Below are positions 1-14,428 of a stretch of 64,000 nucleotides of DNA, piece after piece; position 1 is the first letter of the stretch; each line of letters begins with the position of its first letter. Below the pieces are notes generated by a model, which ran no database searches, was not told where the DNA came from, and saw only the letters and a program-made list of their open reading frames with translations. The DNA comes from Henriciella sp. (GTDB taxonomy: Bacteria; Pseudomonadota; Alphaproteobacteria; Caulobacterales; Hyphomonadaceae): positions 1-64,000 of the forward strand of contig JAEPOM010000016.1 in the NCBI GenBank assembly GCA_017642885.1, in the 5' to 3' direction. The position numbers and the translations under genes are program-made.

Positions 1-158
1 TGCCAGTAACAGGCAGAGGGGCGCAAATGGTCTTCCATTCGCTTGCCGAGGACGAGCCGATCCGCATCATAATACCGATAGGCCAGCGGGTTATCCGATT
101 CTGGTCCCTCATAAGAGATGGGGGCTATTCCGTCATAAAATCCGGCTGCGTCGAACAT
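1..158 (-). CDS. xylA: xylose isomerase, N-terminal part (cut by window edge)
   Basis: This is the start of D-xylose isomerase, which converts D-xylose to D-xylulose in the cytoplasm with divalent metal ions. Only about 52 codons lie in the window. The reverse strand reads [20 protein letters not shown] followed by [20 protein letters not shown], which is the characteristic N-terminus of the long (class II) xylose isomerases. Two in-frame ATGs exist at 164 and 158. The AGGA motif upstream sits only 3 nt from the first but 9 nt from the second, so I prefer 158. The gene follows xylB by 13 nt and is surely co-transcribed with it. The catalytic domain lies outside the window and cannot be judged. 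Confidence 0.93.
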
Positions 159-171
159 GGGCATGCGTCCT

Positions 172-1617
172 TCAATTCAAATCTTTTGTTCTCGTGTAGA
201 GCTCGCGGTATCGCGCGAGTTTTGCGCTCATAATCTCCACGTCACTGGGATCTGGTTCCACGACGTGCTCAATTTCTGGTGCCGGAAACGAGGCTTCACG
301 CTCGCCATTCGCGGCCATTTGCGCAAGCCGTGCAGCGCCTAGCGCAGGACCGACATCCGCATACTTTCGATAGATTAGGGGCCGCGACAAGGCTGCCGAG
401 AGGATGCGCCCCCAATAGGCTGAGCGAGAGCCGCCGCCAATCACGGTGATCGTTTCTATATCCGCGCCCGATGATAATGCGGCGAGCCCGTCAGCGAACC
501 CGTGCGCGACGCCTTCCAACACGGCCTGAGCAATATCAGACGCTCCGCTATCATGGGTCATTCCAAACAACATTCCCGTCGCATTCGGGTCATTGTGCGG
601 TGTGCGCTCTCCTGAGAGATAAGGCAGGAAAGTCGGAGTATCTGCTCCAAACCAGTCGGCGCGCTCAGCATCTGCGATGAGCTGTTCAGCCGATGCCGCG
701 CCGGTCAGGCGAACCGCCCAATCCACGCAGCTCGCCGCCGAGAGCATCACTGCCATTTGGTGCCAGAGGGTTGGCAAGGCGTGGCAGAACGTATGTACAC
801 CGTTTTTCGCGTCTGGCTGATAGGACGTATTTGCGGTGAACAAAACACCGGAGGTTCCGAGCGACAGGAAAGTATCTCCCGGTGCGATGATGCCCGCCCC
901 CACAGCGCCTGCTGCATTATCGCCACCGCCAGCCACGACCGGCGTGCCTTCAGGAAGACCCCACACCGCCGCAACACTGTTCAAGACCTCGCCGGTGACC
1001 TCACACCCCTCATAGAGATCCGGCATGTGCTCACGTGAGAGACCGCAAGCCCCCAACAAGCGGTCAGACCAGTCTCGAGCCCCGACATCCATCCAGAGCG
1101 TACCGGCGGCATCGGACATGTCCGAGGCATAGTTACCGGTCATGCGCAGGCGCACATAATCCTTGGGCAGAAGAACTTTTTCGACTTTTGAGAAGGCTTC
1201 TGGCTCATGCTCAGCCAGCCAGACTAGTTTGGGCGCGGTAAACCCAGGCATGGCCAGATTACCCGCGATATCATGCAATTCAGGAACGCGATCTTCGAGT
1301 ATCGAGCATTGCCCATGGCTACGTCCATCGTTCCAAAGAATCGCGGGCCGAATAGGATCATCACTCTCATCGAGCAGCGTTGCTCCATGCATTTGCCCGG
1401 AAAGTCCTACGGCCTCTACACGGTTTCGGTCAGATTGCGGAAGCGATAACACGGCGGCATTCGAAGCCTGCCACCAATCTTCTGGCTCCTGCTCCGACCA
1501 TAAGGGATACGGTCGCGAGACCGACAGGGGCGCAGTCGCCTGGGCCACTACATCCCCTTCGGGATCCATCAGTACCGCTTTTACCCCGGACGTTCCAACA
1601 TCTATCCCGAGGAACAT
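172..1617 (-). CDS. xylB: xylulokinase
   Basis: FGGY-family sugar kinase that phosphorylates D-xylulose to xylulose 5-phosphate with ATP, feeding the pentose phosphate pathway. At 481 residues it has the usual length. The N-terminus [18 protein letters not shown] is the phosphate-binding loop of the actin-like fold, LSGQMHG near residue 75 is typical of XylB, and [13 protein letters not shown] near residue 230 carries the predicted catalytic Asp. It is followed directly by xylA, so the isomerase route of xylose catabolism is encoded here. It lies 43 nt after the carbohydrate-binding protein gene and probably shares its LacI-type operator at 2350-2363. The Shine-Dalgarno sequence is weak, but no better start is visible. 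Confidence 0.95.
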
Positions 1618-1660
1618 GTCGGCCGCTGGCTCTTGATCAATCGGTGATGCACGGACCTAA

Positions 1661-2251
1661 TCACTCAGAAGGCATTCCTTTGGAGATGGCGTAAAATGGA
1701 CCAAGTTCGATTGTTTGCTTCACGAAACCGAAATTGAAACCCATCTCGGATTCACTGGTTGGAAAATACCTCTCAGCAACTCCCGAGACGCGGTACATTT
1801 TCCATTCCTCAGTGGGCAGAATTTCCGCGTTCAGCACAGTGTCATATGGCTCGACGTCGCGTCCGATTGCAACGCTGATCTTACCTGTCTCGCTTCGACG
1901 CGCTGGTTTCGCAGCGCGCGCCCAGAAATAGACTTCGATTTCTTCGCCCGCTGAGATGCTCTTATCAAACGGTGCGCGCATTCGAATATCCCATGGCTTG
2001 TTGCTCTTTTTGCGCACGCGAAAACTGATCGCCTGCGAGCCGGGAACGCCCTCAGATTCTACGATCGAGACGCTCTTATTGCCACCTTCTGGGTTCCATT
2101 TGATCGCCATCGGATTGTGGATCAAATCGCCGGGTAAGGCTCCTTGCGTCACTGGCGCAACTTCAAACTGCGGATCAGCGGCGACCGTCGGCGCGAGCGC
2201 CAATGACATAGCCAAAGCACTGCCAGCAACAAACAGTTTTACGGACTTCAT
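1661..2251 (-). CDS. secreted carbohydrate-binding-domain protein (CBM4/9-like)
   Basis: A 196-residue exported protein with a Sec signal peptide (MKSVKLFVAGSALAMSLALA, cleavage predicted near TVAA). The rest looks like a single jelly-roll carbohydrate-binding domain: an Ile-Lys-Trp-Asn segment, a Gly/Ala-rich RVRKKSNKPWDIRM strand, EIEVYFWARAA, and the closing GFNFGFVKQTIELGPFY pattern, which resembles CBM_4_9 modules fused to xylanases. No catalytic domain is attached. The start at 2251 is chosen over an ATG at 2305 because GGAGG lies 9 nt upstream of it. It heads the xylBA transcript and sits 87 nt downstream of a LacI-type operator. I infer that it binds xylan fragments; the sequence does not show the ligand. 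Confidence 0.75.
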   Translation of the reverse strand: MKSVKLFVAGSALAMSLALAPTVAADPQFEVAPVTQGALPGDLIHNPMAIKWNPEGGNKSVSIVESEGVPGSQAISFRVRKKSNKPWDIRMRAPFDKSISAGEEIEVYFWARAAKPARRSETGKISVAIGRDVEPYDTVLNAEILPTEEWKMYRVSGVAERYFPTSESEMGFNFGFVKQTIELGPFYAISKGMPSE

Positions 2252-2349
2252 TTTATCTATTCCTCCCATTTCCCGGCACTCCAATTCCGGATGTCTTCGG
2301 GTCATTGCACGCTCTTTGAGAGATTACGTTTCGCAACAACCACCGATAA

Positions 2350-2363
2350 TGTTAGCGCTACCA
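2350..2363. promoter_or_regulatory. LacI-type xylose operator, 14-bp near-palindrome
   Basis: The sequence TGTTAGCGCTACCA is an imperfect palindrome around AGCGCT. From memory it matches the XylR (LacI-family) operator described in Caulobacter xylose genes. It lies 99 nt upstream of the carbohydrate-binding protein gene that heads xylBA. A closely related site is at 9322-9335. No LacI-family regulator gene is in the window. Confidence 0.7.
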
Positions 2364-2447
2364 TAAGTGCGCCAAAGTGACCATCCCCTTGATGGGAATG
2401 ATCACAATTTTGTTTTCGAAATACGGCAGCTTCGAGGCGCACTCTGC

Positions 2448-3185
2448 CTATTGCAGGCTAACCTCACCATTGATCGCTTTCGACAGGTGATCGATGCGAT
2501 CGACGATTTCTTGTTTTGCTTCGCAGTCTCTGCAGCGCTCCAGGATACCTTCCATCTTCCGAAGCTCAGATTCTGCTTTACGCGTGTCGCCGGTCAGAAG
2601 CTTAATCAACCCAATCTTGTAATGTGCATCGTACAAAATTCGGCTAGAGGCAGTTGCTTTTTCAAAACTTCTCAAAGCCTCATTTGTTTTGCCAAGCTGG
2701 ATCTGAGACAAGCCCGCAAAATAAAGCTGCTTTGCTTTCGCATCACAAGTTCGATCATAGGTATTGCGCAGGTTGCGCACCGCCACGCCGTCTGTGGCGG
2801 CGACGCCGGTTGGTGTGGTTTGCCCAGCACCCGCATTTGCCCCCTGCGACGACGCACCAGAGTCAGTTATAGCGGAATTCGTGAACACTTCTGCTCTCTG
2901 CGAGTTGATTTGCGCGGAATCCACCGACGCCCTCACATTGCGCTCGCGGCGCAAAGCGCACATGGCATTGTCGAGGAATTCGATTTCTGCGGTTTCAAAG
3001 TCTCCGGCTCGAAACGCCGCCATGGCCGCATCGTTCTGAACCCCGACAACTTCAACCGTGTCTAGGACGCGGTCTTCGCTTTCCGATTCGGCGGCTTCGT
3101 CCTGAGCGGCAGCGATGGGTGCAGCCAAGCTCATTGCCGCAGCAATTGCGATTGTAGAGAGGAAACGTTTTGTGTTCTTGCGCAT
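2448..3185 (-). CDS. periplasmic TPR protein of the halogenase/TonB-receptor locus
   Basis: A 245-residue protein with a clear signal peptide (MRKNTKRFLSTIAIAAAMSL, cleavage near PIAAAQ). The C-terminal half (about 150-240) holds helical repeats of TPR type, such as KQLYFAGLSQIQLGKTNEAL and AHYKIGLIKLLTGDTRKAE. A first half-repeat lies near FRAGDFETAEIEFLDNA. The mature N-terminus contains DTVEVVGVQN, which resembles the TonB box and plug start of the receptor in this locus. Several Cys residues occur (CALRR, DRTCDAK, CRDCEAK). It is the last gene of the minus-strand flavoprotein operon, 47 nt after the fourth halogenase-family gene. I infer a role in periplasmic handling or energising of uptake; no enzymatic motif is visible. 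Confidence 0.75.
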   Translation of the reverse strand: MRKNTKRFLSTIAIAAAMSLAAPIAAAQDEAAESESEDRVLDTVEVVGVQNDAAMAAFRAGDFETAEIEFLDNAMCALRRERNVRASVDSAQINSQRAEVFTNSAITDSGASSQGANAGAGQTTPTGVAATDGVAVRNLRNTYDRTCDAKAKQLYFAGLSQIQLGKTNEALRSFEKATASSRILYDAHYKIGLIKLLTGDTRKAESELRKMEGILERCRDCEAKQEIVDRIDHLSKAINGEVSLQ

Positions 3186-3232
3186 TTTTATGCCTTTTCT
3201 TGTCTATAGTGTCCTCAACTCCCGGGCGCATC

Positions 3233-4741
3233 TTACCCGTTCTGACACAACTTGTTAAGGTAGGTTGAGTGGTCCTCGAACGCGTCGAGACATTTATGCA
3301 TGGTCCGACGCACCTCGGCCATACGGCGATCCAGAGCATCGTCTGACATAAAATCAATAACTGGATGGTATCTTTTGGGGCGAAAATTTTGCCCCTCGAA
3401 AACAGCAAACCAACTGTTTTCACTAAATAATTCATGGTTGTCCCGATAAAGGCGACCATTCTCCATATAAATATCGATCCGCTCACGCAGCGTGTCGGGG
3501 ATCTCCATCGAACGCACATAATCCCAAAACGGACTGTCGGTGCGTTGGGTCGCATAGTAATGCAAGATCAGAAAATCCCGGACCTGTTCAAACTCCAATT
3601 GGGTCTTGTAATTGAAGTAATCGATATCTTTTTGATTGAAATGCTTGTCGGGGAAGTATGTCAGCAAGCGCGCGACAGCAGATTGAATCAGGTGGATAGA
3701 GGTTGACTCCAATGGCTCCAGGAAGCCAGCGGACAGCCCGAGCGCGACGACGTTCTTGTTCCAGTTTTTCTTGCGGATGCCGGTCGTGAAGCGCAAGAAT
3801 TTGGGCTCCCCCATCGGCGCACCATCCAAGCCGGACCTCAACTGCGCATAAGCTTCGTCGTCACTAATGTACTCGCTGCAATAGACGTGACCGTTGCCAA
3901 TCCGATTCTGCAACGGAATGCGCCATTGCCAACCGGCTTTGTGAGCAGTCGCGCGCGTATATGGAATGGGTGGACCATCCGACTCGCACCCCTGAGCGAC
4001 AGCGCGATTGCATGGCAGATAATGCGACCAGTCTTCATATCCGGTCTCGAGCGCCTGTTCGATCAGCAATCCTCGAAACCCCGAACAATCTATAAACAGG
4101 TCGCCCGCAACTTCTTCGCCAGATTCCAATACGACACTTTCGATGAAGCCGTCTTCAGCGCGTTTCCGGGTATCGACAATCTTGCCTTCAATCCGTTGCA
4201 CGCCTCTCGCTTCCGCAACGCCGCGCATATATTTCGCGTATAGTGCAGCATCAAACTGAAACGCGTACTCGATCGAACTAAGAGGTGAGCCTCTGAGGTC
4301 CGGTTTCGGATGCGCGAATTTGTTCTGCTTAGAGCCCAGACAATGGAGATTGTACTCGTCGATCGGCGCGGCGTCTTCCTGCATCGCATGGCGAAGCCAG
4401 AAATGATGGAAGTGAACGCCTTCCATATTCACGCCATAGGGACTGAACGAATGGAAATATCGCTCACCCACCTGCCCCCAATTCACGAACTCAATTCCAA
4501 CTTTGAACGTCGCATTGGTCTGCCGCAGAAAATCGTTTTCATTTAAGTTCAGCAGCTGATTGAAATACCGGATGTGCGGAATGGTGGCCTCACCAACACC
4601 AACCGTTCCGATTTGCTCCGATTCCACGAGACGGATCCGGATCTCGGGATTTCGCAGCATAATCGCTAACGCCGAAGCAGCCATCCAGCCTGCCGTTCCG
4701 CCGCCAACGATCACAATGTCTTTGATATTCTTGTCGTGCAT
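3233..4741 (-). CDS. tryptophan-halogenase-family flavoprotein (paralog 4 of the array)
   Basis: A 502-residue FAD-dependent halogenase-family protein. Known members use FADH2, O2 and halide to halogenate tryptophan or other indoles. Visible motifs: the FAD loop GGGTAGW (13-19), GVGEATIP (48-55), a lysine at residue 80 in ATFKVGIEF at the position of the catalytic Lys79 of PrnA, WQWRIP (the WxWxIP signature), and PLESTS at the PrnA Glu346-Ser347-Thr348 position. All catalytic signatures are therefore present. I chose ATG 4741 because AGGA lies upstream; a longer start at 4774 would overlap the previous gene by 23 nt. It follows the previous paralog by 10 nt. The true substrate is unknown; context suggests a link to xylose or oligosaccharide use rather than antibiotic synthesis. 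Confidence 0.88.
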   Translation of the reverse strand: MHDKNIKDIVIVGGGTAGWMAASALAIMLRNPEIRIRLVESEQIGTVGVGEATIPHIRYFNQLLNLNENDFLRQTNATFKVGIEFVNWGQVGERYFHSFSPYGVNMEGVHFHHFWLRHAMQEDAAPIDEYNLHCLGSKQNKFAHPKPDLRGSPLSSIEYAFQFDAALYAKYMRGVAEARGVQRIEGKIVDTRKRAEDGFIESVVLESGEEVAGDLFIDCSGFRGLLIEQALETGYEDWSHYLPCNRAVAQGCESDGPPIPYTRATAHKAGWQWRIPLQNRIGNGHVYCSEYISDDEAYAQLRSGLDGAPMGEPKFLRFTTGIRKKNWNKNVVALGLSAGFLEPLESTSIHLIQSAVARLLTYFPDKHFNQKDIDYFNYKTQLEFEQVRDFLILHYYATQRTDSPFWDYVRSMEIPDTLRERIDIYMENGRLYRDNHELFSENSWFAVFEGQNFRPKRYHPVIDFMSDDALDRRMAEVRRTMHKCLDAFEDHSTYLNKLCQNG

Positions 4742-4751
4742 CTCTGTTTTC

Positions 4752-6272
4752 CTAGTCGCGCATTGCTGGCGCATATCTGTTCAAGAACGCCTGGTGTGTT
4801 TCCATTTTCATAACTGCGTTGTTCATCGCTGCCTTCATAGATCCCAAGCTGCGCTCAACTTGTTCTTCGGGGACGCCTTCCACAATTGGATCAGTCGTCT
4901 TCGGGAGAATGTTCTGCCCGAGCAAAACTGCCACCCAGCTAGGTTTGGAAAACAACTCGTCTTCATAGCGGAATACTCGTCCGGCTTCCCGGAAGAGCTC
5001 GATCTTTCGGGTGAGCGAGTCTGGGACACTCATGGTTCGACAATAGTTCCAAAACTCGCTGTCGTCGCGCTCCGTCGCCTTGTAGTGAAGGATGATGAAA
5101 TCGCGCACCTGTTCGAATTTCTGAGTGAGCTGTCGGTTATATTCATCGCGAATGGCGGTCGGCATATTCTTGCTCGGGAACAGTGAGATGAACTTGCTGA
5201 TACCTTCCTGAATCAAGTAGAGCGAGGTCGACTCTAGTGGCTCGAGAAACCCTCCGGACAAGCCTATTGCGATACAGTTCTTGTCCCAGAAGCGTGTTCG
5301 GCATCCGGTTCTGAAGCGGATCTTCCGCGGCGAGCCCAACGCTGGCCCATCCAGATCCGCGAGCAGGCTGTCAATTGCGGCCTCATCATCCATCATCGAG
5401 CTGCAATAGATGTGACCATTTCCGGTGCGATGCTGTGTCGGAATCCGCCATTGCCACCCGGCCGTCTTTGCGGTGGATTTTGTGTATGGCAACAGATCGC
5501 CGGTGCGCTCGCACGCGACCGCCTGCGCCGTGTCGCAGGGCAGCCAGTGTGCCCAGTCCTCGTAATCCACTCCAAGCGTATCGCCCAGCAGCAGCGCGCG
5601 AAAGCCAGAGCAGTCGAAGAACAGATCACCGATCAATTTTGATCCATCCTCCAATTGCACATCCGAGATGAATCCGGTCTCGTCCTTCAGATTGACCTCA
5701 ACCACCTTACCCTCGACGCGCTTCACGCCGCGCTGTTCGGCATAGTCTCGCAGGAACCTAGCATATGCCGTGGCATCGAAGTGATAGGCGTAGCGCAATT
5801 GCGAGAGAACCGACCGCGGATCGTTTGTCGGCATTGCGAATTTGCCCGCGCGAGAGGCAACCGCGCTGAGGCTAAATTCCTCGATCGAACTGCCGGGATT
5901 GGCGCGCTGGAACCGCATCCAATACTGATGGAAGTCGATCCCTTGCATATCGACGCCATGCTCCCCGAACGGATGGAAATAAGTATCGCCTAAACGCCCC
6001 CAATTATTGAACTCGATACCAAGCTTGAACGTGCCATTGGTCGCACGAAGGAAGTCTGTTTCCTTGATTCCCAGTATTCCATTAAAGTTGATGATATCCG
6101 GGATCGTCGCTTCGCCGACACCTACGGTTCCAATCTCCTCAGATTCAATCAGGGTGATCTTAACCGAACGCGGGTCGAGCAAACTCGACAAGGCCGCAGC
6201 CGTCATCCAGCCAGCAGATCCACCACCGACAATGACAATTGATGTCACCAGATTGTTCGCTGACTCATCCAT
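4752..6272 (-). CDS. tryptophan-halogenase-family flavoprotein (paralog 3 of the array)
   Basis: A 506-residue member of the flavin-dependent halogenase family with an intact signature set: GGGSAGW (16-22), GVGEATIP (51-58), Lys83 in GTFKLGIEF at the catalytic lysine position, WQWRIP, and GFLEPLESTS. ATG 6272 is preferred over 6287 because GAGAAG lies 7 nt upstream. The start overlaps the stop of the preceding degenerate paralog by 8 nt, so translation is probably coupled. It is similar along its whole length to the genes at 3233 and 7707, pointing to tandem duplication followed by divergence. The reduced flavin must come from a separate reductase; one candidate is at 20776. Confidence 0.88.
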   Translation of the reverse strand: MDESANNLVTSIVIVGGGSAGWMTAAALSSLLDPRSVKITLIESEEIGTVGVGEATIPDIINFNGILGIKETDFLRATNGTFKLGIEFNNWGRLGDTYFHPFGEHGVDMQGIDFHQYWMRFQRANPGSSIEEFSLSAVASRAGKFAMPTNDPRSVLSQLRYAYHFDATAYARFLRDYAEQRGVKRVEGKVVEVNLKDETGFISDVQLEDGSKLIGDLFFDCSGFRALLLGDTLGVDYEDWAHWLPCDTAQAVACERTGDLLPYTKSTAKTAGWQWRIPTQHRTGNGHIYCSSMMDDEAAIDSLLADLDGPALGSPRKIRFRTGCRTRFWDKNCIAIGLSGGFLEPLESTSLYLIQEGISKFISLFPSKNMPTAIRDEYNRQLTQKFEQVRDFIILHYKATERDDSEFWNYCRTMSVPDSLTRKIELFREAGRVFRYEDELFSKPSWVAVLLGQNILPKTTDPIVEGVPEEQVERSLGSMKAAMNNAVMKMETHQAFLNRYAPAMRD

Positions 6273-7710
6273 GGTTCTGCTTCTCAAGATATCGTTTCAT
6301 ATTGGTCATATAGACGTGATGGGGCGGCATTTTGGATACCATTTGAGCAACCGCGCGTTCGATCCCCTCCAGCTGCTGAATGATAGACGCTTGATCAACG
6401 CCGTCGACTTGTCGGTCATACCGCTCTGGCTTTATGCCCATACCGTTCAGCAAGATCGCCCAATCCTCTTCATTGAACGGCTCGAGGTCGTAGCGAACCA
6501 GGATTCCGCGGCTTTTAAACTGAGTGAGTTTTCTTTGAAGCTTTGCATCAACCGGGACGGCCACCGCATCCTGCCAGTATCGATCCTCCGGCACATTCTC
6601 GACTGCGAACAAAGCCCGCTGAAACGCATTGGTATGGGCGATATCATCCTCAAATCGGCGATTATACTCGCGCGCTTCCACTCTGTGATCGTTGGTGACC
6701 GGGATGAGATCAAGCGCGCGCTCAATGTCCCGCTGTAACAGCATCATTGGCGCAGGCGTGAGGGGCTCAACGCCCCATGCCGCATGACCGATCGCGACGC
6801 AGTTTCCGACCCACGCCTCATCCAGCTTTCCCGTCGTGAACTCAAAAGCTGTCGGGGCCTGCTGGGCGCTCGGGTGGGTTATCGACAAGGTCTCCGTTCG
6901 TCCTTGCAATGGTGTGATCGCACTCCAGCCATGATCGCTGGCTGTAAGCGACCGATACGCAGGGCCTAATTGCCCGCCTTCTTGCCGGGACGAGGATGCG
7001 CGCAATTCTCGAACAGTCTCGAACGAAGCCCCCAAGGCACTCACGAGCGCGCGTTCGTCTGCCGAGCAATCGATGAATAGATCCGCCTCAATCTGGCGGC
7101 CGCTCTCAAGCACTAGCGCGGAAATCCTTCCGTCTGCGACTTGCACCTCACGCAGGCGCTCCGCCACGAGTTCAATTTCTTGCGTTTCATTCCGCTTCGA
7201 TAAGAATTCTTGCAACTCTGAAACGGAAAATTGGTACCCGTATTCAGCACGAGACAATGGATGCCTGGGATCATCCGGCGGGTGCGCGAACACTCCTTTT
7301 GCGGCTGCCCGCGCGGATATGAGATATGGCTCGAGCGCGGCCCCGCGCTCGGTCAGAAAGTGCTGAAACGGCACGCCAGACAATATCGGAAAGGGCAAAT
7401 GGTAGGTCTGTATCCAGGATGGCGATCCGGAGGGCCAGTTGGTGAACCGCGTTCCGAGCGAAAACGCCGAATGCGTGCGCACCATCAAAGTCGGCTCATC
7501 GAGCCCGATAGATTCAAAGAAATTATGCGCTGTTGGCGCTGAAGCGCTGCCATACAGCGCATCCGACTCAGCCGTCTGATCCGATGCCACGATGACGAGG
7601 CGCGCTGCTCGGCCCAAGCTGCGAGAAAATGCGGCAGCGGTCAGGTGGGCGGCGAAACCGCCGCCGTAAACTACGATCGTGCGAGAAGGGTTAGTCATCG
7701 AATTGATCAC
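6265..7710 (-). CDS. degenerate tryptophan-halogenase-like flavoprotein (paralog 2, catalytic residues lost)
   Basis: A 481-residue full-length homolog of its three neighbours but strongly divergent. The FAD loop survives only as GGGFAAH (16-22). The GVGEATIP motif is replaced by YGSASAPT. The catalytic Lys is replaced by Ser84 in SAFSLGTRF. WxWxIP has become GWSAITP, and PLESTS has become PLTPAP, so the residues equivalent to PrnA Lys79, Glu346, Ser347 and Thr348 are all missing. The frame is open throughout, so this is not a decaying pseudogene. It starts at GTG 7710, which overlaps the upstream TGA, or at ATG 7698. It probably does not halogenate; it may bind flavin or substrate, pair with an active paralog, or have another activity. 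Confidence 0.8.
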   Translation of the reverse strand: MINSMTNPSRTIVVYGGGFAAHLTAAAFSRSLGRAARLVIVASDQTAESDALYGSASAPTAHNFFESIGLDEPTLMVRTHSAFSLGTRFTNWPSGSPSWIQTYHLPFPILSGVPFQHFLTERGAALEPYLISARAAAKGVFAHPPDDPRHPLSRAEYGYQFSVSELQEFLSKRNETQEIELVAERLREVQVADGRISALVLESGRQIEADLFIDCSADERALVSALGASFETVRELRASSSRQEGGQLGPAYRSLTASDHGWSAITPLQGRTETLSITHPSAQQAPTAFEFTTGKLDEAWVGNCVAIGHAAWGVEPLTPAPMMLLQRDIERALDLIPVTNDHRVEAREYNRRFEDDIAHTNAFQRALFAVENVPEDRYWQDAVAVPVDAKLQRKLTQFKSRGILVRYDLEPFNEEDWAILLNGMGIKPERYDRQVDGVDQASIIQQLEGIERAVAQMVSKMPPHHVYMTNMKRYLEKQNHG

Positions 7711-9251
7711 GTTCCTCGTGCGTCCATGCGGCCTGCTGCCAATCGCGCCGATTCCGATTCGGCGCCATAACGTGTCAGGAAGGTTTGCTGCTCTGGTGTT
7801 GTCTCCACAGCTTTGTGATTTTCGCGCAGAATACGCTCCAGTTTGCTCATCGCGTCGGTATCGGCAAACCGGTCAGCTCTTGGATCGTATCCGCTCGGAA
7901 CGAGATTCTGTCCGAGCATGACAGCGATCCAGCTTGGTGGAAGAAACACGCCGAATTCGTACTTCAGAATGTAGCCGCGGGTCAGCCAGGCCTCGAGCTT
8001 TTCGTTCAAACTATCGGGCAGCTTCATATTTCGAAAGTAGCGCCACATTTCGCTATCATCGCGTTGCGTAGCGACATAATGAAGAAGAAGGAAGTCTCGC
8101 ACGCGCTCGAAATTCAACGCCATGCGCTCATTGTACTCTTCGCGATCCAGCGCGTTGATGCTGCCATCCGGGAAGAGCTCAATGAGGGCGGTGATACCTT
8201 CCTGGATGAGATGGATCGATGTCGATTCCAATGGCTCCAGAAAGCCTCCCGAGAGGCCGATACAGACTACATTTTGATTCCAGAATTTACGACGACGCCC
8301 GGTTTTAAAGTATAGCTGTTTGGGATCTGCGAGCGCCGGACCCTCCAGTGTACCCATCAACTGCGCTGTCGCTTCGTCGTCTGAAATGAACTCGTTCCAA
8401 TAGACGTGCCCGTTGCCGGTGCGATGTTGCAAGGGAATGCGCCATTGCCATCCGGCTTTGCGAGCCGTAGCCCGTGTGTAGGGCAGCAACTTCCCGCGGG
8501 ACTCGCTTGGCACGGCAACGGCGCGATTGCACGGCAACCAATGGCTCCAGTCATCATATCCGGTTTCAAGCGACTGCTCGATCAGCACGCCGCGGAAGCC
8601 AGAGCAGTCAACGTAGAGGTCGGCCTCAATTTCCCGGCCATCGTCCAGCTCAATCTTGCGCACATCCCCGGTGTTCGGATCGCGAACAGCATTGACCACT
8701 TTGCCCTCGGTGCGAGCGACCCCTTTGCCCTCGCAATAGGTTCGCAGGAACTTTGCATAGAGGCTTGAGTCGAACTGGTAAGCATATCCAAAGTTCGATC
8801 CAATCTTATTTGTGTCCGGGCCAGGCAATTGAAATTTGCCCTTCTCTGCGGCGACAACCGGATAAGAATACTCATCCAGACGCGGGACCCGTTTGGCTGC
8901 ATTGAGCTTCAACCACAACTGATGAAAATCCAAATCACCCACCGGGAACCCATAGTCGCCGAAGGGATGTACATAGTGATCGCCTAGCCGACCCCAATCG
9001 CAGAATTCGATTCCAAGTTTGAAGGTTGCGTGGGTCGATTTCATGAACTCTCGCTCGTCGATTCCCAGTGCCTGATTAAAAAACCGAATGTGTGGTAAAG
9101 TTGCCTCACCTACGCCGATCGTGCCGATCTGATCCGACTCCACCAGCTCGATATCGAGACCTAATGCGTTGAATTTATTAGAAAGTGCGGCCGCGGCCAT
9201 CCAGCCGGCGGTGCCTCCCCCAAGGATACAGATCTTCCGCATCTTGTTCAC
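7707..9251 (-). CDS. tryptophan-halogenase-family flavoprotein (paralog 1, first gene of the operon)
   Basis: A 514-residue flavin-dependent halogenase homolog with GGGTAGW (11-17), GVGEATLP (46-53), Lys78 in ATFKLGIEF as predicted catalytic lysine, WQWRIP, and GFLEPLESTS. The start is GTG 9251: GAGGG lies 7 nt upstream, whereas the internal ATG at 9242 has no Shine-Dalgarno sequence. It heads the minus-strand operon and diverges from the TonB-dependent receptor, with a LacI-type operator between them. Comparable flavoproteins next to TonB receptors are known in Brevundimonas, Caulobacter and Xanthomonas, some with brominating activity on indole; their physiological role is unsettled. Confidence 0.88.
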   Translation of the reverse strand: MNKMRKICILGGGTAGWMAAAALSNKFNALGLDIELVESDQIGTIGVGEATLPHIRFFNQALGIDEREFMKSTHATFKLGIEFCDWGRLGDHYVHPFGDYGFPVGDLDFHQLWLKLNAAKRVPRLDEYSYPVVAAEKGKFQLPGPDTNKIGSNFGYAYQFDSSLYAKFLRTYCEGKGVARTEGKVVNAVRDPNTGDVRKIELDDGREIEADLYVDCSGFRGVLIEQSLETGYDDWSHWLPCNRAVAVPSESRGKLLPYTRATARKAGWQWRIPLQHRTGNGHVYWNEFISDDEATAQLMGTLEGPALADPKQLYFKTGRRRKFWNQNVVCIGLSGGFLEPLESTSIHLIQEGITALIELFPDGSINALDREEYNERMALNFERVRDFLLLHYVATQRDDSEMWRYFRNMKLPDSLNEKLEAWLTRGYILKYEFGVFLPPSWIAVMLGQNLVPSGYDPRADRFADTDAMSKLERILRENHKAVETTPEQQTFLTRYGAESESARLAAGRMDARGT

Positions 9252-9321
9252 GTCGCAACCCTCATCCTGCCTCTACATATCACTTTTATGACTCTTCTCT
9301 TGCCATCAAGGAATAAAAAAT

Positions 9322-9335
9322 GATAGCGCTATCAA
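9322..9335. promoter_or_regulatory. LacI-type operator, perfect 14-bp palindrome
   Basis: TGATAGCGCTATCA is a perfect palindrome and shares the TAGCGCTA core with the xylose operator at 2350-2363. It lies in the 314-bp divergent region (9252-9565) between the first halogenase-family gene and the TonB-dependent receptor, 71 nt from the former and about 230 nt from the latter, so one bound repressor could control both directions. I could not assign -35/-10 boxes with confidence. Apart from this site and the hairpin at 9499-9526, I see nothing else in that gap. Confidence 0.7.
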
Positions 9336-9498
9336 TTCGAGACGCAGCTCACGGTCAAGAGAAGAAACCAGAGCGTGTCAGGGAGGAAACCAGTGCTACC
9401 CTAAAGTGTGGCGCATGTTCAGGGAAGATATCTGATAAATCACGAGTTATCCGTGCATGAGGCATTGGCACAATTTTGCCAGGCTCAAATGCGGACAA

Positions 9499-9526
9499 AA
9501 AAACCGACATCCAATCATCGGTTTTT
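9499..9526 (+). terminator. terminator-like hairpin in the leader of the TonB receptor gene
   Basis: AAAAACCGA and TCGGTTTTT form a 9-bp stem with a 10-nt loop. The 3' arm ends in a run of five T. It sits between the operator and the receptor start, 39 nt before GTG 9566. It could be a leader terminator (attenuation) or an RNA stability element. The stem has only three G-C pairs, so it may be weak. Confidence 0.4.
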
Positions 9527-9565
9527 CTATCAAGATCACTGAATTCGATTGAGGGAGATACATCA

Positions 9566-12500
9566 GTGAAATCGAAGTTGAAGATCGGCCGCAAAGGGCC
9601 AAACAAACTCACGCTTCTGGGAACGACGGCACTGTTCGCAGCGTTCGGCGCGCAAACCGCGTGGGCGCAGGCTGACGATCAAGCCGAAGACGCTCAGGTT
9701 GAAAATGTTAGCGATAACACAACCGAAGATGAGGCCCGTCAGGACGTTATTGTTGTCCAGGGTGTTCGTGGCGCGCTGCAAAATGCGCGGAACTTGAAGC
9801 GGGATTCTGACACGTTTGTGGATTCGATCACTGCGTCAGACGTGTCCCAGCTCCCAGACCTGTCTGTGGCAGAGGCGCTCGCGCGTGTTCCCGGCGTTGT
9901 TACCCAACGCTTCGAACTGGGTGGCAGTGACGGTGACTTCCCGTCCCCCGAAGGCTCAGGCAATATCGTCCGTGGCCTGCAATATGTACGCTCCGAGTTT
10001 AACGGTCGTGATGCGTTCTCCGCCAATGGCGGTCGCGCGCTGGAATGGGCAAGCATCCCGCCAGAATTGATCGGTGCGGTTGACGTCTTCAAAAACCAAC
10101 GCGCTGACATGATCGAAGGCGGCATCTCAGGCGTTGTGAACCTGCGTACGCTCGAACCATTTGACCGCGACGGCCTTGTTGCGGTTGTGATCGCAGACGG
10201 GACGTATACCGATCTGGCAGAAGAATGGAGCCCAGGTTTCAGCGCGGTTCTCGGCAATCGCTGGGAAACCGATGCGGGTGAGTTTGGCCTTCTAGGCTCT
10301 TTCTCTACGTCTGAACTGAACTCAGCCATTCACGGCTTCCAATTTGGTCCTCTTTTGACGCTCGATAATCAATTCAACCCCGGTTCAACGATCGCGCTTC
10401 CAGGCGGCTGGCAAGCGCGTGACGTCGAATTCCAACGTGAACGCGATAGCTACTATCTCGCAGGGCAATGGCGCTCCCCAGATGGGAATACCGAGCTGAC
10501 CGTCAAAGGCGTCCGCGTCGAAAACGATACGCAATCAGATGAGCGCACATTCGAATTCTTCACCGACGCTGAGTCTTGGGCATCTTGGGAATTCCTTGGC
10601 GACGGCACGGCGTTCAATCTCCGTCCGTTTACGTCCGATGGCATTTCGCAGTGTAACGGCAACGGCGAAGCGGCAAATGGCGGTATCGGCATTTGTGAAA
10701 CCCTCCGTCCGGTAGACGGCGGTCTCTTTGATCGCGGTGTCGTCTCAAACGGCTTGCGCGATTGGCTGGGTGACGGCGCCACTGGCACTGGCAGCCTCGG
10801 CACGCCGTTCCAGTCGCTCGCTGTTTACGAAGCGCGTGAATCGGTTACGCAAGACATCAGCGCAAACCTGAAATGGCGCGCCAATGATCAGTGGTTCTTC
10901 GAATTCGATACCCACTATACGGAAGCCGAAGCAACGCTCGATCGTCTCTGGGCGGGCGGCAATCACTTTGGCGACTACGCCTATGACTTCACCGACCCAA
11001 TGAACCCGGCGATTTCCCTGTTCCAAACAGGCACGCAATTGCAGTCTTGGGTCCCTCGCGGCGGTCAACCAAACACGCCGCCAACGTCTCTAGCAGATCC
11101 ATCGACCGCGTATCTGCTGTACGCGGCTGACCAGTTCGAAGACAATACGGGTGACCTGTTCGCCTTCCGCGCCGATGCGGAATACGAGTTCGCGGACGAA
11201 GGATGGTTTGACTCCGTCAAGTTTGGCGCGCGTCGTTCAGAGCGTGAGCAACAGAACCGCAGTGCAGGCCTCAACTGGGCGGGCATCGCGCCACCTTGGG
11301 CGGGCGGCTATTTGCCTTACTCAAATCGTGCAGATTCCGACGCATTTGAAGTCTTTGATTTTTCTGATTTCCAGCGCGGTGGCCTCTTCATCGGTGATGC
11401 GGGCGTGGTCTTCCCATCTCGCGATCAGATGCAAAACTATCAGGCATTCGTCGACTCTATCGCGAATGAGCCGCTGATCACTACAGCGACCAATTCCGAC
11501 GGAAATCTGCAAATCGGCGACTGGGCCCCTCTGGTTCAGAACGGCGTCATTGACTATGCCGGTCGTGGGATCGATGGTTCCGTTCGCGAAGAAACCACCA
11601 ATGTCTACGGTATGCTGAACTTCGGCGAAGAGTTCGACAACGGACAAGCGCTCTCTGGTAATGTGGGCGTCCGTTATGTCAAAACCGACATCTCCGGCGG
11701 CGGCGTTGGAGGGTTCTCGGAATTTGCAGACCTCGACCCGACAAATGCCGCGTCGAACCCACGCACTTATCTGCCGGAACTCGCAGCGTATCTTGATCAA
11801 GCTGATACGCAGATCGGGATCGACAACAGCTATGAGTATTGGCTGCCTTCGTTGAACATGAAGTGGGAGCTGACGGATGAAATCCTGATCCGCTTTGCGG
11901 CGAGCCAGGCAATCACTCCGCCAAATATTGCAGACCTCAATGCGAGCCGTAACTCGCGGGCTCTGCTTGGCATTGTAACCGACCCGAACCCGGCGCCTGG
12001 CACCTTGCCCGGTGTAGTCGACATCATCCCTGATGCGGTCCGTGTCGACGGTGGCAACCCGAACCTGCAGCCTATCGAAGCGACAAACTTCGATCTGTCG
12101 TTCGAATGGTACTTTGGTGATGACGGTCAGTTCACGGTCTCCGCGTTCCAAAAAGACATTGAGAACATCATTGTCTACGGTACGACCAACGAAGGATCGG
12201 CAACATTTGATGGGTACACGATCCCGATAGACTTCGGTGGTAACGTCAACCTCAATGACGGTTCCGTTCAAGGTATCGAAGTCGCCTATCAGCAGTTCTA
12301 CACCGACCTGCCGGGTCTGTTCGGAAACCTCGGCATTCAGGCCAACTTTACAATCATCGAGTCTGAAGCAACAGCTCTGCCTGCATTCGAAGATGCGGAT
12401 GGTGACGGCATCCCGGACGACTTCCTGACCGTCTATCGGTATGGCATTGACGAGCTGCTTGGTCTTTCAGACCTGTCAGGCAACCTGATCGGTATCTACC

Positions 12501-12790
12501 AGGATGATCGTTTTGAGGCTCGCCTCGCATATAACTGGCGGTCTGACTATTTCAGCTCTTATCGTGACTTCGTGACCGGGAACCCGATCATTCAAGAAGA
12601 GATTGGCTTCCTTGATGCCTCGTTCAAATGGGACATCACGGATCAGGTTCAGCTCAGCGTACTGGGGGCCAACCTGCTCGACACGAAAGCGTTCGCGAGC
12701 CAACAGGTCGATCAGGCGGGACAACGCTACGCGCGGTCTAGCTTCGTCAATGACCGACGGTTCGAAGTATCGGTACGATACGCCTTCTAA
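9566..12790 (+). CDS. TonB-dependent receptor, Xanthomonas/Caulobacter type
   Basis: An outer-membrane active transporter of 1074 residues driven by TonB-ExbBD. The signal sequence contains KLTLLGTTALFAAFGAQTAW and ends near WAQA. The TonB-box region DVIVVQGVRGAL is followed by a plug domain (LPDLSVAEALARVPGV, with VNLRTLEPF at its end). A long beta-barrel ends in the aromatic RFEVSVRYAF typical of outer-membrane proteins. GTG 9566 is chosen over ATG 9476 because GGGAG lies 9 nt upstream and the longer start adds 30 unlikely residues before the signal. Length and style match the family that takes up plant or algal oligosaccharides. The flanking LacI-type operator and nearby xylose genes suggest xylo-oligosaccharides as substrate; this is inference. 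Confidence 0.9.
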   Translation: MKSKLKIGRKGPNKLTLLGTTALFAAFGAQTAWAQADDQAEDAQVENVSDNTTEDEARQDVIVVQGVRGALQNARNLKRDSDTFVDSITASDVSQLPDLSVAEALARVPGVVTQRFELGGSDGDFPSPEGSGNIVRGLQYVRSEFNGRDAFSANGGRALEWASIPPELIGAVDVFKNQRADMIEGGISGVVNLRTLEPFDRDGLVAVVIADGTYTDLAEEWSPGFSAVLGNRWETDAGEFGLLGSFSTSELNSAIHGFQFGPLLTLDNQFNPGSTIALPGGWQARDVEFQRERDSYYLAGQWRSPDGNTELTVKGVRVENDTQSDERTFEFFTDAESWASWEFLGDGTAFNLRPFTSDGISQCNGNGEAANGGIGICETLRPVDGGLFDRGVVSNGLRDWLGDGATGTGSLGTPFQSLAVYEARESVTQDISANLKWRANDQWFFEFDTHYTEAEATLDRLWAGGNHFGDYAYDFTDPMNPAISLFQTGTQLQSWVPRGGQPNTPPTSLADPSTAYLLYAADQFEDNTGDLFAFRADAEYEFADEGWFDSVKFGARRSEREQQNRSAGLNWAGIAPPWAGGYLPYSNRADSDAFEVFDFSDFQRGGLFIGDAGVVFPSRDQMQNYQAFVDSIANEPLITTATNSDGNLQIGDWAPLVQNGVIDYAGRGIDGSVREETTNVYGMLNFGEEFDNGQALSGNVGVRYVKTDISGGGVGGFSEFADLDPTNAASNPRTYLPELAAYLDQADTQIGIDNSYEYWLPSLNMKWELTDEILIRFAASQAITPPNIADLNASRNSRALLGIVTDPNPAPGTLPGVVDIIPDAVRVDGGNPNLQPIEATNFDLSFEWYFGDDGQFTVSAFQKDIENIIVYGTTNEGSATFDGYTIPIDFGGNVNLNDGSVQGIEVAYQQFYTDLPGLFGNLGIQANFTIIESEATALPAFEDADGDGIPDDFLTVYRYGIDELLGLSDLSGNLIGIYQDDRFEARLAYNWRSDYFSSYRDFVTGNPIIQEEIGFLDASFKWDITDQVQLSVLGANLLDTKAFASQQVDQAGQRYARSSFVNDRRFEVSVRYAF

Positions 12791-12843
12791 TCATGAGCGC
12801 CGGCGAAAGCCGGCTCTCAAAAACAAATTGTTCTCAAAACTTC

Positions 12844-12876
12844 AGGGAGGCCCTTTTCGGCCTCCCTTTTCTTTTG
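12844..12876 (+). terminator. rho-independent terminator after the TonB receptor gene
   Basis: AGGGAGGCC (12844-12852) pairs perfectly with GGCCTCCCT (12859-12867) across a 6-nt loop, followed by TTTTCTTTT. A second, smaller GCCGGC-gaaa-GCCGGC hairpin lies just upstream near 12801-12818. Confidence 0.88.
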
Positions 12877-12888
12877 TGTGATGTCGGA

Positions 12889-13557
12889 TCAGAAGCGGCG
12901 CTTCAGGTTCGCGATGACCTTGGACAGTGTGAGCATCTCCGGAGACTGATCATCCAGACGGCCCGCCAGCTCAGCTTTTAGATTGATCAGATCGAAAAGC
13001 GTTTCCCTGTCTTCGACGCGCCGAGCGCGGCTCTCGATCCAGCCAACGCAGACAAGGCGCTCACCCGATGTAACTTCGGCGACCTGGTGCAGGCTAGAGG
13101 AGGGATAGAGGACGAGATCGCCGGCATTAGGCTTCATCGACTGTGTTTGCCCGGCATGCTCGACCAGTAATTCGCCGCCCTCATATGTCTCTGGTCGAGA
13201 CAGAAAGAGTGTGAAGGAAAGATCCGTTCTCAGGCTCTGCTCTCCATCTCCCATAAATGGATTGTCCACGTGCAACCCATAGCCGCCGCCCGTGGTCGTC
13301 TTGCTAATCAGGACCGACGAAAATTTGTGCGGTTGCGCTGCGGCGCGCAGGACCGGATGCGCGGAAATGGCGCCAAACAGGATCTGCTCAACTTTTGGGC
13401 CGATCGATTGATTCAAATCAGCCCGCTGATTTCGTTTCACCTGCGCGGCCACGCGTCCTGCGGTTTCAGCGCCATCTTTCCAGACCAGTGCGTCGAGCAT
13501 TCCGCTCAACAGCTCCCGCTGATCGGCGTCGAGCACCTGAGAGATCGAAATAAGCAT
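12889..13557 (-). CDS. PiuC/YbiX-type Fe(II)/2-oxoglutarate-dependent oxygenase
   Basis: A 222-residue PKHD-type hydroxylase-family protein. The iron ligands are visible as His96 and Asp98 in GLHVDNP and His157 in SSLHQVA; Arg167 in GERLVCVGW is placed to bind 2-oxoglutarate. Length fits the PiuC family (about 225). In many Gram-negative bacteria this gene sits beside a TonB-dependent siderophore receptor and is iron-regulated, though its substrate is unresolved. Here it converges with a TonB receptor across a strong terminator and diverges from a lipoprotein gene 79 nt away. Start ATG 13557 is supported by the family N-terminus (MLISISQVLD). Confidence 0.85.
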   Translation of the reverse strand: MLISISQVLDADQRELLSGMLDALVWKDGAETAGRVAAQVKRNQRADLNQSIGPKVEQILFGAISAHPVLRAAAQPHKFSSVLISKTTTGGGYGLHVDNPFMGDGEQSLRTDLSFTLFLSRPETYEGGELLVEHAGQTQSMKPNAGDLVLYPSSSLHQVAEVTSGERLVCVGWIESRARRVEDRETLFDLINLKAELAGRLDDQSPEMLTLSKVIANLKRRF

Positions 13558-13636
13558 GTTTCCCTACTTGCGACTGATTTTCATTAAGCGCATAAGACGT
13601 AGTGCATCTTGCAGCTTATCTGAAGGAAATAAATCG

Positions 13637-14428
13637 ATGAAGCTCCGCATGAAGACCTGGGCAAAACTGGGACTGAGCACCGCGCTGGCATCGGGAGCTG
13701 TCGCGGCGTGTGGCCAGGCGCCGAGCGATGACGGCCCATCAGCAGAAGAGCCGCCCGTCTCCGTTTCAAACTTAGGTGAGGGTGGCGAAAGCGGTGAAGG
13801 CGAGGGAGAAGGCGAAGGCGGCGAAGCTGGACACGGCATGGATATGCTGCCGGTCGAGAAACGCGTGGCGTTTATGTCTGGGCATGTCGAAGCGGGTCTG
13901 GCCCTATTCCGCGCGGGTGCACCGGATCAAGCTGCCAAACACTTGATGCACCCAGTATCGGAAACACACGAGGCAGAGCGCGCAGGCATTGACGCGCTTG
14001 GCTTTGACCAGGATATTTTCATCGAGGTTTCCGTGGCGCTGGAACAGGGCCGCCCGGCTGATGAGATTGAACCCCAACTGGCGGCAGCCGAAGCGAACAT
14101 GACCCTGATGCAGCAAAATGCAGGCGGCGATCCTGTAGATGTCATCAGCTACCTGATGGACACTGTCTTCGAAGAGTACCGGATCGGCGTCACCAATGGT
14201 GTCATCACCGATGCTGGCGAGTATCAGGATGCGTTTGGGTTTACGGTCGTCGCGCTGGGAATCGCGAGCCGGATCGAAGATCGAAACACAGATCGCCTGG
14301 TCGCTGAGCTCGAAGCTTTGTTGGCTATGTGGCCCACGACCGGCCCCTTGGCAGAGTCAACGCCGACACCCGTCTCGGAACTGGTTGCTCAAACCTCCCG
14401 CGTCCACATCGCGCTCGGCGAGCTCTAG
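13637..14428 (+). CDS. acidic lipoprotein of unknown function next to PiuC
   Basis: A 263-residue protein with a lipoprotein signal: MKLRMKTWAKLGLSTALASG followed by the lipobox AVAAC, giving Cys25 as lipidation site. After a low-complexity Gly/Glu linker (about 55-70) comes a helical domain with several His residues (GHGMDM, SGHVEAG, HLMHPVSETH). GAAGGA lies 9 nt before ATG 13637; an upstream ATG at 13556 would remove the lipoprotein signal from the N-terminus. I do not recognise the domain. The His-rich stretch and the divergent PiuC gene make a metal-linked envelope role possible, but that is a guess. Confidence 0.7.
   Translation: MKLRMKTWAKLGLSTALASGAVAACGQAPSDDGPSAEEPPVSVSNLGEGGESGEGEGEGEGGEAGHGMDMLPVEKRVAFMSGHVEAGLALFRAGAPDQAAKHLMHPVSETHEAERAGIDALGFDQDIFIEVSVALEQGRPADEIEPQLAAAEANMTLMQQNAGGDPVDVISYLMDTVFEEYRIGVTNGVITDAGEYQDAFGFTVVALGIASRIEDRNTDRLVAELEALLAMWPTTGPLAESTPTPVSELVAQTSRVHIALGEL

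Follow-up and report, generated by a model that had tools for sequence, protein, structure and literature searches.

Gene content and order of the locus

The DNA analysed here, hereafter the window, is a 64,000-nucleotide stretch of a Henriciella genome (contig JAEPOM010000016.1, our C7, positions 1–64,000) that carries, close to its first base, a set of xylose genes, four tandem genes of the flavin-dependent halogenase family and a divergent TonB-dependent receptor gene. Contigs of this genome are denoted C, surveyed loci L and other genomes G. The minus strand holds, in ascending coordinates, the 5′ end of xylA (xylose isomerase, 1..164), xylB (xylulokinase, 172..1617; TIGR01312, 561 bits against a cut-off of 380), a gene for a secreted carbohydrate-binding protein of the CBM_4_9 family (hereafter CBM, 1661..2305; PF02018, E 6e-8), a secreted TPR protein (2448..3185; TPR profile matches, orthologs in relatives, signal peptide judged by eye), and the halogenase-family genes H3 (3233..4774; PF04820, 644 bits), H2 (4752..6287; 622 bits), Hdeg (6265..7710) and H1 (7707..9251; 604 bits), H1 being the first and Hdeg the second gene of the array. 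The receptor gene lies on the plus strand (9566..12790; TIGR01782, 573 bits); its open reading frame (ORF) opens at 9476, and the start is likely the GTG at 9566, which is followed by a signal-peptide-like stretch and kept in L054, L055, L056 and L059. The four array genes match PF04820 with E-values from 2.5e-66 to 1.8e-193 and are the only genes in the 3.66 Mb genome that do so. An initial annotation of the window had placed all these genes as we find them, xylA being present as a 5′ piece only.

Since the contig ends at base 1 of the window, xylA is incomplete: about its first 54 residues are encoded here, and residues 77–440 lie at the start of contig C13, adjoining a LacI-family gene (C13:1109-2137). 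Compared by blastp with the intact relative in L054, the two pieces match at 93% (residues 1–54) and 98% (residues 77–440). In L054, L055 and L056 the order is unbroken, namely GH3 (glycoside hydrolase (GH) family 3), LacI, xylA, xylB, CBM, TPR, H3, H2, Hdeg, H1 and receptor, and the window joined to the start of C13 gives the same order split over two contigs. The LacI-family gene, which stands beside xylA in all of these loci, is a candidate XylR. These three loci are close kin, as are L077 and L151, and neither group counts as independent; the TPR gene of L056 was found by six-frame search, being missing from the ORF map. The CBM gene adjoins the array also in L054–L056, L058 and L125.

Directly behind the signal peptide of the TPR protein stands a TonB-box-like stretch (DTVEVVGV in the window, DEIVVTGS in L058, also present in L054 and L055, and weaker in L125 and L101). 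Receptors carry such a stretch too, and the soluble TPR protein might touch TonB.

Operators shared by the xylose operon and the array

The promoter region of the CBM–xylB–xylA operon contains, at 2350..2363, the site TGTTAGCGCTACCA, which reads TGGTAGCGCTAACA on the minus strand and is identical to the xyl-box that the accessible text of PMC10380989 gives for Xanthomonas and ties to XylR, also of Caulobacter. For Caulobacter and Xanthomonas, the accessible part of PMC1790865 likewise describes a motif conserved among receptor genes that xylose induces. The second site, O1, lies between the divergent array and receptor genes (9321..9334, TGATAGCGCTATCA) and recurs in L054–L057 and L059. It has 12 of the 14 letters of the xyl-box, and hence of the site at 2350, and all fixed letters of the pattern TGNTAGCGCTANCA. 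A third, operator-like site with one mismatch, TGTTAGCGATAACA, lies inside the receptor gene at 9706..9719, 385 bases from O1. With at most one mismatch, the window holds three TGNTAGCGCTANCA sites against 0.07 expected, a number reached in 0 of 100 shuffles; the LacI-type palindromes initially noted at 2350 and 9321 are real.

Across the 3.66 Mb genome there are seven perfect TGNTAGCGCTANCA sites, every one at xylan or xylose genes or at the halogenase/receptor promoter. Besides C7:2350 and C7:9321 these are C13:4959 (between GH3 and a major facilitator superfamily (MFS) gene), C13:9031 (GH3), C13:11609 and 11663 (upstream of GntP, in the 5′ end of a lactonase ORF as listed) and C71:21504 (GH10, with the ATG about 30 bases off). 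The true start of the lactonase may be later than listed, because its lactonase domain begins about 150 residues in. One mismatch adds five sites, among them C7:9706. Beyond the perfect sites the genome has seven occurrences of TGNNAGCGCTNNCA, each missing one or both TA flanks. No xyl-box was found at the LacI repressor gene itself. The exact xyl-box at 2350 and the placement of all seven perfect sites support the shared control with xylose and xylan genes that had been predicted for the array.

The initial annotation had described the operators by their AGCGCT core. The core alone is only weakly enriched in the window (32 occurrences where 22.6 would be expected; 4 of 100 shuffles have as many) and was rejected as an operator marker because it is too common. 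In 1.82 Mb of surveyed loci, perfect TGNTAGCGCTANCA gave 24 matches, 14 of them near halogenase or receptor starts, and nine control patterns gave 0, 0, 7, 0, 0, 5, 0, 1 and 0, the two largest counts coming from patterns that contain the AGCGCT core.

Around 9706, the window shares an unchanged stretch of 27 bases with L054, L055, L056 and L059, and the neighboring codons vary; the receptor gene has synonymous divergence (dS) of 1.35–1.85 among the window, L054 and L055. The distance from O1 to the internal site is 369–386 bp across loci. Such a pair of sites would suit looping by a LacI-type repressor.

A conserved inactive member in a recurring array

H1, H2 and H3 keep the flavin adenine dinucleotide (FAD) motif GxGxxG, the catalytic lysine, WxWxIP and the glutamate before Pro-Leu, and are predicted to be active as flavin enzymes. 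In Hdeg the lysine has become serine, WxWxIP has become WSAITP (W-A-T-P for W-W-I-P) and the third glycine of the FAD motif alanine; the glutamate is kept, and the protein is about 30 residues shorter. By its residues we classify Hdeg as a degenerate relative and not as a halogenase. The array had been described as four equal paralogs, which must be revised: its second gene is a conserved, apparently inactive relative. This degeneracy and the third near-perfect site at 9706 are points that go beyond the initial annotation.

The solved structures nearest to H1 by sequence are BrvH (6frl), 9luq and Xcc4156 (6y1w). BrvH and Xcc4156 belong to group C and are not tryptophan-specific; according to the accessible text of their papers, both have open active sites, and the natural substrate of BrvH is not known. 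H1–H3 resemble them in keeping the lysine, the glutamate and WxWxIP, and Hdeg does so in its predicted fold: its AlphaFold2 model, built from 17 sequences, has a mean pLDDT of 91.5 and finds its best structural match in BrvH (TM 0.87). The BrvH gene, too, adjoins a second halogenase gene, as stated in the part of the BrvH paper at hand. The window differs in that its halogenase genes form an array whose second member is inactive and which stands under a xyl-box, and the main text of the BrvH paper contains no word beginning with TonB.

To place the array among its relatives, 100 loci were surveyed: 20 stretches from hand-chosen relatives and 80 named loci, the best 80 of 581 confirmed relatives. 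By this choice the survey leans towards close kin of the window's genes. The nearest named loci among these best 80 come from Maricaulis, an uncultured Caulobacterales bacterium, Hellea, Asticcacaulis and Aestuariibacter. Halogenases were counted by six-frame search, as antisense ORFs mask them in some ORF maps; an unlabelled cluster of 18 loci (representative L132:9857-11455), antisense to a halogenase and without a Pfam match at 1e-8, was taken as spurious. Among 247 full-length sequences (four from the window), 201 keep the lysine, both tryptophans and the glutamate.

We denote a member with intact catalytic residues A, a degenerate one d and one cut by a contig end p. Among the 47 arrays of three or more genes, 26 read AdAA and 17 AdA, together 43 of 47, the rest being single cases of pdA, AAd (L112), pAA and dAA (L126, which also begins at a contig end). 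The d of L120 departs by Glu to Asp only. Three- and four-gene arrays are common among the surveyed loci, and the arrangement, at first held to be new, is not unique. Seven loci (L060, L061, L065, L068, L095, L133 and L141) have an AA pair in which no d was recognised between the two genes. In L060, L061 and L065 the gene in between is too divergent for the 1e-10 search yet matches PF04820; L141 has a halogenase-labelled ORF there at 1e-6, and the in-between gene of L068 (266 aa) has no match. L095 (AA pair plus an Ad group) and L133 (AA pair plus two degenerate frames) lie outside the A-d-A order.

Close orthologs of Hdeg (42–82% identity) occur beside other halogenases in seven other genomes among the 61 searched (own included), and they sit in full four-gene arrays in the five genomes where the contig allows; all other listed matches reach at most 33% identity. 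One could suppose that the degenerate gene is a decaying pseudogene and the array a set of plain tandem duplicates, as Hdeg evolves faster than its neighbors and escapes easy recognition in some loci. Its dN/dS is 0.16 and 0.10 in the two computable comparisons of three, against 0.02–0.07 for H1–H3. These ratios, the confident predicted fold and the fact that 43 of 47 arrays keep the degenerate gene as an open frame in their second position speak against decay, and in a FastTree of 247 rows the second-place degenerate genes form nearly one clade (37 second-place genes need two changes and 44 first-place genes four, with a long-branch warning). That warning weakens any claim of a single origin for the inactive member. 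We consider the pseudogene explanation largely refuted and very improbable. With its catalytic residues lost, its predicted fold kept, purifying selection acting on it and a conserved position, Hdeg has the features of a conserved pseudoenzyme.

Predicted sugar classes of the surveyed loci

Classed by the enzymes encoded within about 10 kb, 21 loci are of xylan type, 25 of starch/levan type, 53 unclassed and one mixed. The inactive member is present in 20/21 xylan, 0/25 starch/levan, 33/53 unclassed and 1/1 mixed loci; the full array therefore follows xylan. If up to one mismatch is allowed, 15/21 xylan, 1/25 starch/levan, 10/53 unclassed and 0/1 mixed loci have a xyl-box close to the start of a halogenase or receptor gene. 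Operator and array occur together in five relatives (L054–L057 and L059). Lack of co-regulation with xylose genes, together with related loci devoid of carbohydrate genes or of the shared operator, had been named in advance as what would refute the link with sugar uptake; given these five relatives and the 15 xylan loci, the link is not refuted on these grounds.

Enzymes recognised among the 80 named loci include GH13 (15 loci), GH97 (11), GH68 (4), GH9 (9) and GH5 (6), counts that are lower bounds because one reference protein per family was used at E 1e-10. Xylan specificity of the whole halogenase family was rejected, as starch (GH13, GH97) and levan (GH68) loci carry members. Nine starch-type loci (L070, L071, L072, L089, L093, L107, L109, L134 and L136) have two single active halogenases beside or flanking the receptor, and six of the nine also have DUF6445; the levan/sucrose-type loci L091, L092, L105 and L124 combine GH68, receptor, halogenase (two frames in L105) and a TPR–2-oxoglutarate (2OG) oxygenase. 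Among 2OG-type neighbors in the 80 named loci, Cupin_8 occurs in 16, TPR-2OG in eight and DUF6445 in eight, at least one of them in 31; that DUF6445 is 2OG-like is a conjecture.

These distributions bear on the substrate. Plant xylan carries ferulate- and coumarate-type esters, and the flavoenzymes could act in the cytoplasm on such groups imported with xylo-oligosaccharides; the presence of the inactive member in xylan but not starch/levan loci would agree with this. However, receptors in starch and levan loci also have single members of this enzyme family next to them, and starch and levan carry no such aromatic ester groups. Nor did a scan of the array and its surroundings (ten proteins, 172–14428 only) reveal a feruloyl esterase or aromatic catabolic gene. 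Action on aromatic groups esterified to xylan, as initially put forward, is therefore not supported as stated; for the xylan arrays nothing in the analysis favors the idea, which we regard as unlikely.

Alternatively, the array might make or detoxify some small aromatic compound, for instance a halogenated signal or an agent directed against competitors, during growth on xylan. The accessible text of the BrvH paper reports that BrvH brominates free indole, slowly, and dietary control of such a function would make ecological sense. Against this, no biosynthetic, scaffold-making or export genes were found among the same ten proteins (172–14428 only), and the constant neighbor of the array, among the neighbors identified, is the receptor. 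This explanation appears more doubtful still than action on xylan esters.

Linkage to one receptor type

In the 80 named loci, receptors were recognised in 70 by single-sequence search and in 66 by profile, and in 56 they appear as frames of at least 700 aa no more than 500 bp away from a halogenase. To follow this association from the receptor side, a profile was built from 22 array-linked receptors, and the best 12 candidates per genome were scored in 61 relatives and the best two per genome in 299 genomes drawn from the phylum. In the relatives, 22 receptors reached at least 1000 bits, and in every case their contig also carries a halogenase (within 0.5 kb for 19 of them, at 3.9–5.1 kb for three); in the phylum set, 15 reached at least 950 bits, all with a halogenase within 0.5 kb. 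The two sets overlap by two, so that 35/35 receptors scored at these levels have a halogenase alongside. The window's genome has two more TIGR01782 receptors above the cut-off (C70:89565-92705 and 103534-106398), separated by about 11 kb; neither has a halogenase in its vicinity.

Proposed function of the locus

We interpret the locus as a XylR-controlled locus for the uptake and use of xylan oligosaccharides that carries a receptor-linked halogenase module, and give this reading a probability of about 0.72. The LacI-type repressor encoded beside xylA would bind the xyl-box ahead of the CBM–xylB–xylA operon, O1 at the divergent halogenase/receptor promoter and probably also the site within the receptor gene. 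Xylose would release the repressor, and the receptor would then import xylo-oligosaccharides. We envision the halogenase array as an accessory module tied to this receptor type, in which H1–H3 would modify an aromatic ring with the help of reduced FAD, O2 and possibly halide. The inactive paralog would most likely act as partner subunit or scaffold.

The locus resembles the XylR regulon of Caulobacter crescentus and Xanthomonas, as far as the accessible descriptions go, in the same 14-base operator, a LacI-type repressor with the xylose genes and receptor genes sharing the motif. It differs in its halogenases, a word that occurs 0 times in PMC1790865. The carbohydrate utilization containing TonB-dependent transporter (CUT) loci, as described in the accessible part of that paper, likewise combine receptor, repressor, inner-membrane transporter and GH3 and GH10 enzymes, and in the window's genome a common motif is found at the receptor, GH3, GH10 and MFS genes. 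Unlike in CUT loci, these parts are spread over several contigs, and the halogenase module is outside that part of the description.

Halogenase as a word is absent from PMC1790865, PMC2996990, PMC8245568 and PMC11897816. Halogenase and TonB-dependent terms occur together in PMC11337851, PMC7333567 and PMC3377617, and one new-species description carries halogenase, TonB and xylan, in each case as a word match only. A full-text literature search, subscription papers lying outside it, found no paper joining tryptophan halogenase, TonB-dependent receptor and glycoside hydrolase. We do not claim that the halogenase–receptor link is unpublished.

Several observations weigh against this interpretation. 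L057 has O1 without the internal site, and the arrays of L058, L077, L088, L125 and L151, whose inactive members are among the closest to Hdeg, are without a box. In the 299-genome set, seven receptors scored 774–922 bits, of which two adjoin a halogenase and five do not. The genome G057 has such a receptor and no PF04820 match, so a receptor of that type can exist without a halogenase. As the profile was itself built from linked receptors, the linkage means that this receptor clade and the enzymes travel together, and the enzymes are not proven to be required. Finally, tryptophan, tyrosine, histidine and cysteine columns were compared in 45 receptors linked to inactive-member arrays (the window's included), 27 with halogenases but no inactive member, and 26 unlinked. 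Trp601 and Trp608 are kept in 100% and 96% of the first group, 30% and 19% of the second and 12% and 4% of the third. The two columns nevertheless give no support for receptor modification and were rejected as evidence of it, because G057 keeps both; so do receptors of G090, G183 and G346 that have no halogenase next to them.

What the module acts on is a matter for more tentative proposals. Since the family also serves receptors in starch and levan loci, it is more economical to assume a substrate linked to the receptor system than one linked to xylan esters. Our leading guess is that the array works in the cytoplasm on a protein of that system (the receptor itself, the TPR protein or the CBM protein), modifying an aromatic side chain before the protein is exported, in many loci aided by 2OG-type oxygenases. 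The 35/35 linkage to one receptor type, its persistence in loci for different sugars and the Cupin_8, TPR-2OG or DUF6445 genes in 31/80 named loci are consistent with this, as are two points from the accessible literature: the open site of BrvH, with its exposed lysine, could take larger substrates (BrvH paper), and MibH, which also belongs to group C, is a halogenase of a lanthipeptide that bears tryptophan. On the other side stand the tryptophan columns kept in G057, the 49/80 named loci with no 2OG-type gene and the genomes without a halogenase match, where all 22 searched (of 24) have TIGR01782 matches, 16 of them above the cut-off. Because the 2OG-type neighbors fit and the receptor-tryptophan test failed, we place protein modification well below even odds, ahead of the other substrates considered. 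Less probable again is a more specific form, in which the A-d-A(-A) array would form a complex that modifies proteins and serves a single clade of outer-membrane sugar receptors. In it, an active and an inactive subunit, both of halogenase fold, would pair, recognise a receptor-system protein and oxidise or halogenate its aromatic residues before export. If it were true, a family known from antibiotic chemistry would serve nutrient uptake. The recurring setting names a likely inducer (xylose), a partner receptor and a conserved inactive partner, which would turn the substrate question of BrvH-type enzymes into a direct experiment.

Genes beyond the receptor

Beside the receptor gene, 12889–14428 encodes a PKHD-type hydroxylase (12889–13557) and a protein without a Pfam match. 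The hydroxylase was considered as a part of the system and left out of it, because it is recognised in only 2/19 of the relatives' loci and 0/80 named loci; the second protein is found in 1/19 of the relatives' loci.

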